The notes beneath the pieces were generated by a model that had not been told where the DNA came from, ran no database searches, and saw only the letters and a program-made list of their open reading frames with translations. A stretch of DNA of 27,913 bases from a virus, in the IMG/VR virus record IMGVR_UViG_3300047554_000131, positions 1-27,913 of that record, one strand, 5' to 3'. Both the position numbers and the translations under genes were made by a program. Of this stretch, positions 6,131 to 9,163 are shown piece by piece. The stretch's first letter is position 1. Every line of letters starts with the position of its first letter.

Positions 6131-6584
6131 GACAGAGGTAGACTATTTGGTACTTTACGGCAAAACACGCCAGAAAGTTAGGGCGCTCGAGCAACAGTTA
6201 GAGCGCCTTATAGCCAAGCACAATGTGGAAGTAGAGACGCTAAAGGCCGAACTCAATAACCCGACACGCAAAGCGACATTTAAAAATAAGAGCGTAATTA
6301 ACGACTTGCTGCTAGAGGTGTGCAAAGCAACCAACACAACGGCAGGCCAGTTAATGGGGCCCAGTAGAGAGCGCAACATAGTAACCGCTCGACACTTGTT
6401 TTTTTACATTGCTAGGCACGAGTTTAACTTTTCGTGGGTTAAAATAACTGGCTTGCTAGACAGACACCACACTAGCGGAATACATGGCGCGACTCAATAC
6501 GCTACCTATTTAAAACTTAATTACAAACTAGAAACAAAACTTTACAAAGCAGTTATGGAGGCTGTAAAAAATGACAAACAATAA
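6117..6584 (+). CDS. Coiled coil plus DnaA domain IV-like DNA-binding protein
   Basis: A 155-residue protein. Residues ~18-48 are a charged coiled coil. Residues ~58-140 match the C-terminal DNA-binding domain of DnaA: SRERNIVTARHLFFYIAR corresponds to the conserved R-x-x-x-A-R-x-x-x-x-Y block, and LLDRHHTSGIHGATQYA to the signature normally read as G-R-D-H-T-T-V-x-H-A. There is no AAA+ ATPase domain. It may bind DnaA-box-like sites, help origin firing, or act as a repressor or DnaA decoy. It overlaps the next gene by 14 bases. Assignment rests on the spaced motif. Confidence 0.7.
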   Translation: MLANKTEVDYLVLYGKTRQKVRALEQQLERLIAKHNVEVETLKAELNNPTRKATFKNKSVINDLLLEVCKATNTTAGQLMGPSRERNIVTARHLFFYIARHEFNFSWVKITGLLDRHHTSGIHGATQYATYLKLNYKLETKLYKAVMEAVKNDKQ

Positions 6585-7748: not shown

Positions 7749-7911
7749 GCACACAGACAAAACCTTTAACAGCACCGAAATTCAAGAGTTTATAAAGGGA
7801 ATTTCGCTACCTCAAGCCGAGTGGGTTAAGGTAATGAAAAAGGCTTTTAAAGAAACAACGCTGGGGCATAACGCCTTTGGCATTGAAGTAACTTATGCTA
7901 TTAAGGAATGA
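7717..7911 (+). CDS. Hypothetical protein, 64 residues
   Basis: A small alpha/beta protein (MKTFIITVEIEHTDKTF ... FGIEVTYAIKE) whose start lies inside the previous gene after ACGGAGGC, a ribosome-site-like stretch. It ends in an ATGA overlap with the methyltransferase. The alternating hydrophobic pattern at both ends suggests beta strands. Codon use shifts back toward the core here. Function unknown. Confidence 0.6.
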   Translation: MKTFIITVEIEHTDKTFNSTEIQEFIKGISLPQAEWVKVMKKAFKETTLGHNAFGIEVTYAIKE

Positions 7912-8780
7912 AACACGGCAGCCTTTTTAGCGGTATTGGTGGCTTTGATTTAGCAGCCGAATGGATGGGCTGGGAGAATGTATTTCACTGCGAGTGGAAC
8001 GCATTCGGGCAGCGAGTTCTTAAGCACTACTGGCCAAACGCCGAAAGTTTTAACGACATAACAAAAACAGACTTTACAAAATATGCAAACACAGTTGACA
8101 TTCTCACTGGAGGCTTTCCATGCCAACCATACAGCAGCGCAGGCAAGCGACTCGGAAAAGAAGACGAGCGCCATTTATGGCCAGAAATGCTTAGAGCAAT
8201 ACGCGAAATTTCCCCGAGTTTCGTCGTGGGCGAAAATGTTCGCGGCCTCACTAATTGGAACGGGGGGCTGGTATTCGACGAGGTGTGTTCTGACTTGGAA
8301 AATCTTGGGTATCAAGTCGCGCCCATTATTATACCTGCGTGCGGGGTTGGTGCACCACACAGAAGGGAGCGCGTTTGGTTTGTTGCTTCCAACGCCAAAT
8401 GCAGTCGAGGCTTACAATGGTGCGAAAACATACAATCCCAAAAGTCAAATGGGCAGAAGTTTGTCTGCACTGGCTGGCAGCGCAATGTTACCAACGCCAA
8501 ACAGTTACGACTGGAATACCGCACGGAGTTCAGAGGCATTAGAAAGAGCCCAAAAAAGGCACAAAGCGAAAGGCGTAATTTTGCAAACAAGTTTAAGGCA
8601 AATGGCTGGACAAGGTTCCCAACTCAATCCCCAATTTGTGGCGGAAATGATGGGCTTTCCTACGAACTGTACGACATTACCTTTTCTAAATGGAGAGCAG
8701 AAAGTATAAAGGCCTACGGTAATGCCATAGTTCCGCAAGTAGCTTACGAAATTTTTAAAGCAATAGAACTAACAAAATGA
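7908..8780 (+). CDS. C5 cytosine DNA methyltransferase
   Basis: A 290-residue Dcm-type methyltransferase with the motifs in order: I, FSGIGGFDLA at residues 7-16 (SAM binding); IV, GGFPCQPYS at 68-76 with the catalytic Cys near 72; VI, ENVRG near 109; VIII, RRERVWFVA near 152; and X, KAYGNAIVPQVAYEIF near 267. The target-recognition region (~162-245) is short and polar. No restriction enzyme is adjacent, so it is an orphan phage enzyme, probably protecting DNA against host restriction. Its recognition site cannot be read from sequence. A second frame from 8083 to 8709 is open throughout. Confidence 0.92.
   Translation: MKHGSLFSGIGGFDLAAEWMGWENVFHCEWNAFGQRVLKHYWPNAESFNDITKTDFTKYANTVDILTGGFPCQPYSSAGKRLGKEDERHLWPEMLRAIREISPSFVVGENVRGLTNWNGGLVFDEVCSDLENLGYQVAPIIIPACGVGAPHRRERVWFVASNAKCSRGLQWCENIQSQKSNGQKFVCTGWQRNVTNAKQLRLEYRTEFRGIRKSPKKAQSERRNFANKFKANGWTRFPTQSPICGGNDGLSYELYDITFSKWRAESIKAYGNAIVPQVAYEIFKAIELTK
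8083..8709 (+). CDS. Nested +1-frame reading frame inside the methyltransferase (candidate overprinted gene)
   Basis: An uninterrupted 208-codon frame lies wholly within the methyltransferase in the +1 frame. Its product does not look random. It contains SSWAKMFAASLIGTGGWYST, RCVLTWKILGIKSRPLLY, two LLPTPN-type blocks (LLLPTPNAVEAYN, MLPTPNSYDWN) and LNPQFVAEMMGFPTNCTTLPF. I recall the same blocks (LTWK, LPTP, LNPxFVExMMGFP) from proteins annotated beside or within phage Dcm genes, so the frame is probably conserved. The first ATG is at 8083 with no ribosome site; translation could also come from reinitiation or frameshifting. It may instead be a non-translated by-product of codon bias. Functional status is open. 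Confidence 0.45.
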   Translation: MQTQLTFSLEAFHANHTAAQASDSEKKTSAIYGQKCLEQYAKFPRVSSWAKMFAASLIGTGGWYSTRCVLTWKILGIKSRPLLYLRAGLVHHTEGSAFGLLLPTPNAVEAYNGAKTYNPKSQMGRSLSALAGSAMLPTPNSYDWNTARSSEALERAQKRHKAKGVILQTSLRQMAGQGSQLNPQFVAEMMGFPTNCTTLPFLNGEQKV

Positions 8781-9163
8781 AAATACAAGACATTAAAATA
8801 AAAGAACGCGTTAAAACAAAGGCAAAGTTTTTGCCAATGGGTGACAAAATATTAAAATACACTGAGTTCGATGTACTAGAGCAAGAAGTGCGCACATATA
8901 AGGACATGCTGTTAATGGCTTTTCGCTGGGATTCAACGCCAGAGGGACACGACTACTGGCAGTCAGTTGTTGACTCAATAGAGCCGCCGAATATGCCAAC
9001 CTGCCCCAAGTGCAATAACCCTAAAATTGATTTTAAACGCAAAGTGCAACTATATTGCTGCAAAAAATGTGAAATAAACTTCGACGAAACACGGACCAAA
9101 ATATACAGTTTTCGCCCTTACACCAAACCACAAACAGACAATGAAAGCAACGCTAGAATTTAA
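8777..9163 (+). CDS. Zinc-ribbon-like protein
   Basis: A 128-residue protein overlapping the methyltransferase stop as ATGA. Residues 76-98 hold CPKCNN and YCCKKC, that is C-x2-C then CC-x2-C about 15 residues later, a zinc-ribbon arrangement. The N-terminal ~70 residues (KIKERVKTKAKFLPMGDK...) are predicted helical. Zinc ribbons in phage early operons usually bind nucleic acid or a host polymerase, but the partner is not evident. Confidence 0.65.
   Translation: MKIQDIKIKERVKTKAKFLPMGDKILKYTEFDVLEQEVRTYKDMLLMAFRWDSTPEGHDYWQSVVDSIEPPNMPTCPKCNNPKIDFKRKVQLYCCKKCEINFDETRTKIYSFRPYTKPQTDNESNARI

Follow-up and report, generated by a model that had tools for sequence, protein, structure and literature searches.

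Does the long reading frame nested inside a phage C5-cytosine methyltransferase gene encode a protein of its own, and what would this protein contribute? The frame is found in a 27,913-nucleotide stretch of viral DNA (the window) that, judged by its genes (a DnaB-like helicase, terminase, portal and major head protein), derives from a tailed phage. The outer gene, alpha, spans positions 7908-8780 and encodes 290 amino acids assigned to the large subunit of a C5-cytosine methyltransferase, with motifs I-VIII and X but no recognizable motif IX. The nested gene, beta, spans positions 8083-8709 in the +1 frame relative to alpha and encodes 208 amino acids; from its ORF, its match to phrog_1008 and its pattern of selection we propose it as a recognition and motif IX subunit. 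Alpha, beta and the motifs mapped within them lie on the plus strand. The coordinates, frame and length of the nested ORF given in the original prediction, and the motifs quoted from it, proved exact. We conclude, with a probability of about 0.85, that the locus would specify a two-subunit C5-cytosine methyltransferase from one stretch of DNA read in two frames, and that the DNA-reading region and motif IX, both absent from alpha, most likely come from beta.

Alpha is an intact methyltransferase frame, as had been claimed, and matches PF00145 (E = 1e-48) with residues 1-196, which cover positions 1-194 of the 324-position profile. The TIGR00675 match is confined to residues 5-191, so that profile matches on alpha stop at residues 191-196 (profile positions 163-194), and the alignment with HhaI and HaeIII ends at residues 160-161, at motif VIII (HhaI, E = 2.1e-21, residues 5-160). 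Motifs I, IV (PCQ), VI (ENV) and VIII (HRRER) are present in order. Translation and the HhaI alignment place motif IV with its catalytic cysteine (GGFPCQPYS) at 8109-8135, motif VI (GENVRGL) at 8229-8249 and motif VIII (GAPHRRERVW) at 8349-8378; motif X (KAYGNAIVPQV, from translation) follows at 8709-8741 and thus shares one base, 8709, with the end of the beta stop codon. Motif IX and the target-recognition region are not in the same chain, and a motif IX-like segment is located in the nested frame. Alpha by itself thus appears to be an incomplete C5 methyltransferase, and alpha and beta together would be complete. No endonuclease was identified among the neighbor genes examined, and the methyltransferase is an orphan phage gene. 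Three small neighboring ORFs (starting at 6571, 6777 and 7330) have near-identical starts (MTNNKQQ, MTNNEQQTAV and MTNNKQKTAV) and then diverge, as if one start segment had been reused. The gene directly downstream (8777-9163) encodes a 128-residue protein with a zinc-ribbon-like CPKC...CCKKC pattern, which matches solely phrogs of unknown function.

A long nested frame could be a by-product if conserved methyltransferase motifs and skewed codon usage kept the +1 frame open by chance, the alternative raised in the original prediction. The alpha sequence constrains two bases in every nested codon, and conserved alpha motifs do impose some similarity on nested frames. We gathered 80 viral loci using the methyltransferase protein alone as query, and all 80 carry a nested relative at the same position; the same +1 arrangement is found in 80 of 80 cellular (bacterial) loci read, mostly from Bacteroidota. 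When synonymous codons were permuted gene by gene in the 74 distinct members of this viral set, keeping the methyltransferase protein and its codon use, 0.01 stop-free nested frames were expected, whereas 66 are observed, and the mean longest +1 ORF is 242 residues compared with 91 under the shuffle. The +2 frame of these genes conforms to the null (42 versus 46). In the reverse shuffle, where the nested protein was held constant, 0.05 methyltransferase frames were expected to be free of stops, against 124 of 124 found. A long +1 ORF is absent from four monomeric C5 methyltransferases whose motif IX is in frame (p = 0.5-0.8), and four alpha-type genes from cellular genomes contain one that none of 200 shuffles reproduced (p 0 of 200).

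The two frames can also be told apart by where they are constrained. Four-fold degenerate sites of alpha have a mean entropy of 1.67 bits in codons 1-50, which drops inside the overlap to 0.94 (codons 61-155), 0.36 (156-232) and 0.33 bits (233-262) and returns to 1.48 bits past it (263-290). The boundaries of this freezing coincide with the nested ORF, and freezing is restricted to its interior. In the +1 geometry the third base of an alpha codon is the middle base of a nested codon, and the first base of an alpha codon is the nested third base. Among close pairs, third-position substitutions outnumber first-position ones by a factor of 4.53 before the overlap (95% CI 4.05-5.26) and 2.22 in codons 61-155; this ratio is 0.52 (95% CI 0.46-0.59) and 0.55 (0.46-0.65) in codons 156-262 and rises to 4.01 past the overlap. 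With a ratio below 1, the DNA of codons 156-262 changes in the manner of a gene read in the nested frame. Both frames are clearly under selection: from motif IV to motif VIII constraint acts on alpha and beta, whereas beyond motif VIII that on beta prevails and alpha continues as a weakly conserved linker as far as motif X. The two opposite shuffles, four-fold entropy, codon-position periodicity and the monomeric controls rule out a chance ORF, to which we assign a negligible probability.

An internal nested stop occurs in 1 of 126 aligned loci. Stops in relatives, or a lack of purifying selection, were the outcomes that could have overturned the original prediction; overprinting withstands this comparison, and the nested ORF represents a real overprinted gene family preserved by selection together with the methyltransferase. 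The single stop is a TAG in locus L018, where the remainder of beta is well conserved despite it; a sequencing error, a recent loss and readthrough would each account for this codon. In the window, nested-frame stops flank the ORF at codon 51 upstream and at 8707-8709, its end. Translation and the aligned loci place the beta start codon, an ATG, at 8083-8085 (alpha codon 59). All 126 aligned loci have a nested-frame ATG after the last upstream stop and near this position, with 31.5 expected. The last such ATG falls exactly at the beta start position in 49 of them and elsewhere at codon 48, 49, 57, 60, 64 or 74.

Beta belongs to phrog_1008 (E = 2.2e-23 for the window protein), which is matched by all 113 members of the beta alignment (the window protein and 112 relatives), and it shares 27-49% identity with records in the phage collection. 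Comparison with Pfam gave matches at chance level only, NCBIfam returned no match, and searches of solved structures with the beta sequence or profile found nothing convincing. In the alignment of 113, the block WYSTRCVLTW (residues 63-72, 8269-8298), whose DNA encodes in the alpha frame the segment separating motif VI from motif VIII, contains the invariant residues Trp-63, Ser-65, Cys-68, Leu-70 and Trp-72. Two LPTPN modules follow in the translation at 8386-8400 and 8488-8502, within a proposed target-recognition region (8373-8693, alpha codons 156-262) in which substitutions follow the beta frame. LPTP-like units number 0-5 per beta, most commonly 2, and most relatives have 1-3 ahead of motif IX. 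Modules such as LPTPNSYDWNTA... are shared by otherwise diverged betas (window 8386-8622 and loci L035, L044, L078 and L128), and the units behave as if recognition cassettes recombined yet stayed open in both frames.

The putative motif IX of beta, LNPQFVAEMMGFPTNCT, maps to 8623-8673. It aligns by hhalign with the C termini of fused mycobacteriophage methyltransferases (probability 95.4, E = 1.8e-8), and canonical C5 motif IX gives its best local match at the right place, a weak one with E = 0.011 in a single comparison. The consensus C-terminal end of beta relatives is SQLNPrFVAEMMGFPpNWTeLPF. At 8668-8670 the window encodes cysteine (NCT) in place of the near-invariant tryptophan (NWT), which may affect the activity of this phage's copy. 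An AlphaFold model of beta alone is poor (pLDDT 54, pTM 0.27), and we therefore take its fold from fused homologues.

Natural rearrangements of phrog_1008 suggest what beta would do. In a staggered form, found in Mycobacterium phages Steamy and Dylan and in Arthrobacter phage Andrew, the second ORF begins within the catalytic ORF and extends beyond its end. The family profile matches these staggered ORFs (Steamy gp76, E = 4.5e-81; Dylan gp6, 1.1e-59; Andrew gp44, 3.4e-64), nested ORFs (K1ind1 ORF28, 2.6e-54; Lily gp63, 5.8e-44) and the C-terminal halves of one-chain methyltransferases (Philonius gp55 residues 391-549, 3.9e-71; locus L325 residues 194-390, 1.3e-57). In Philonius gp55 and many relatives the part corresponding to phrog_1008 is fused in frame at the C terminus and comprises the recognition region, motif IX and motif X. 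The predicted structure of one such one-chain homologue, L315 (pTM 0.77), resembles M.HhaI (Foldseek E = 4.1e-16, Z = 23.3); its residues 1-362 align to M.HhaI residues 12-327 and correspond to a whole C5 methyltransferase. These staggered and fused forms point to beta as a partner contributing recognition and motif IX.

Among the loci read we found no beta homologue free of an adjoining or surrounding C5 methyltransferase, and the search for nested-protein homologues outside methyltransferases, proposed together with the original prediction, returned none. Three apparent exceptions, in a Porphyromonas phage, Lacticaseibacillus R23.9 and Bacteroides BS-TP4, were all rejected, as in each the +1 overlap is present and the annotation omits or relabels one frame. 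Among 299 genomes scanned from the phylum to which a Burkholderiaceae bin belongs, 14 contain phrog_1008. In several Bacteroides species (loci L238, L242 and L232) the alpha frame has TGA at conserved tryptophan codons (AAE*MGW, SR*RQAS) and beta is intact. Reading L333:5397-6668 with TGA as tryptophan gives a match to phrog_363 over its length, and no tRNA gene was found in the 15-19 kb around each TGA-bearing Bacteroides locus; recoding and decay would both account for these codons.

We propose that ribosomes would start alpha at position 7908 and beta at its own ATG at 8083 on the same mRNA. Alpha would provide the AdoMet-binding and catalytic motifs I-VIII, a long, little conserved linker and motif X, and beta the target-recognition region with its LPTP modules and motif IX. 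The two chains would assemble into one active enzyme, in which beta would replace the small DNA-reading domain of M.HhaI. From the sequences we infer that the two chains are both produced, that they interact and that activity requires the pair, and that the beta modules set sequence specificity. The enzyme would most likely methylate the phage DNA, and methylation would presumably allow evasion of host restriction.

Two other accounts accept beta as a coding sequence. A programmed frameshift could carry ribosomes from alpha into the nested frame and yield a fused alpha-beta protein, as the original prediction also envisaged. In-frame fusions of both parts are known in mycobacteriophages, and in the description of overlapping methylase halves in Corndog-like phages, frameshift, hop, intron and two products were all left open for Corndog genes 6 and 7 (PMC4351075). 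Against a frameshift, beta has its own ATG at every locus and nested-frame selection begins at about this ATG rather than at a slip site; moreover, a single shift would drop motif X, which is retained in the alpha frame. We consider a fused product very improbable. Beta could alternatively be a separate protein that is merely overprinted and has its own role, for example in anti-restriction or in regulation of the methyltransferase. An ORF akin to the N-terminal half of beta is selected in streptococcal-phage methyltransferases whose outer frame has motifs I-X, which would fit such a role. The C-terminal half of beta, however, corresponds to an in-frame part of one-chain methyltransferases and provides the motif IX missing from alpha, and in no locus read does beta occur without alpha beside or around it. 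An entirely separate protein is therefore quite improbable. The suggestion that the nested gene encodes an anti-restriction or methylation-linked protein thus holds for the link to methylation, since the fused and staggered mycobacteriophage forms contain recognition and motif IX, and not for a separate anti-restriction function. The two-subunit enzyme remains our preferred reading.

The streptococcal-phage ORF is a second, distinct overprinted ORF, phrog_16143 (for example L296:1652-2068, with relatives in loci L334-L413), nested in monomeric phage C5 methyltransferases. In 72 distinct genes of this type, all with motifs I-X in the outer frame, the longest +1 ORF averages 159 versus 64 residues. 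Four-fold entropy is 1.52 before the ORF, 0.56-0.85 within it and 1.26-1.41 after it, and the corresponding substitution ratios (third to first position) are 5.67, 1.07-2.07 and 3.08-7.50, respectively. The ORF is thus selected according to the stop, four-fold and codon-position tests. Two of four phrog_16143 members tested weakly match the N-terminal half of phrog_1008 (E = 9e-4 and 2e-3), a likeness partly forced by the shared alpha motifs. Because the outer frame keeps motif IX, the phrog_16143 ORF cannot be needed for that motif, and by the same argument the role of the N-terminal half of beta may be other than enzyme completion. A wider hypothesis, which we regard as doubtful, is that phage C5 methyltransferases in general, including those with a full motif set, are accompanied by a +1 protein overprinted on motifs IV-VIII whose N-terminal half has an ancient function, and that the recognition and motif IX tail was added later, splitting the enzyme. 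If true, the ancient function could be assembly, control or counter-defense.

The proposed alpha-beta enzyme has a close counterpart in M.EcoHK31I, a two-polypeptide methyltransferase specific for YGGCCR, whose small-subunit gene we take to lie likewise inside the large one in another frame; in the window, beta (8083-8709) is wholly nested in alpha (7908-8780). Compared by description rather than by sequence, the motif partition is the same, since the large subunit of M.EcoHK31I has motifs I-VIII and X together with a predicted target-recognition domain, and the small polypeptide has motif IX (PMC3404938). The placement of this domain is where the two systems conflict: it is predicted in the large subunit of M.EcoHK31I (PMC3404938), whereas substitutions and fused homologues would put recognition, with the LPTP modules, in beta. 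The window methyltransferase is also an orphan phage gene, unlike M.EcoHK31I. M.AquI is likewise a C5 methyltransferase composed of two polypeptides, as proposed here, but has motifs IX and X on its small subunit (PMC3404938); the window small subunit would have motif IX only, and KAYGNAIVPQV is found in the alpha frame past the beta stop. In Corndog and Dylan (genes 7 and 6) and in Steamy (77 and 76) the catalytic and phrog_1008 halves are similarly encoded in overlapping frames, with the difference that the second ORF overruns the first and includes both motif IX and motif X, whereas beta is wholly nested and motif X lies in alpha. K1ind1 ORF28 and Lily gp63 ('g62 internal gene') belong to the same family, phrog_1008 'DNA methyltransferase', and have the same nesting in a C5 methyltransferase, and their annotation states no role or mechanism. 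Phage methylases that carry an HNH insertion out of frame (PMC11855218) were rejected as a parallel, because there an inserted homing element is involved and not the catalytic region itself.

The two-part M.EcoHK31I and the occasional annotation of the nested ORF, as in Lily and K1ind1, were thus already known. Three findings seem to be new in the literature consulted: two-frame selection in a large set of phages, the shared arrangement of all 80 cellular loci that we read, and evidence that recognition is encoded by the nested frame. Long same-strand overprinting with both frames strongly selected has seldom been documented so cleanly, and it is represented here by 126 phage loci. By inference, our findings bear on the question posed for Corndog genes 6 and 7 (PMC4351075) and favor two products. 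They suggest that, in enzymes of this type, the nested frame holds the DNA-reading part and the catalytic chain simply reads across it; changing recognition modules would then have to stay open in two frames. Annotation that retains one of two overlapping ORFs would miss a subunit, and an orphan alpha assayed alone could falsely appear inactive.
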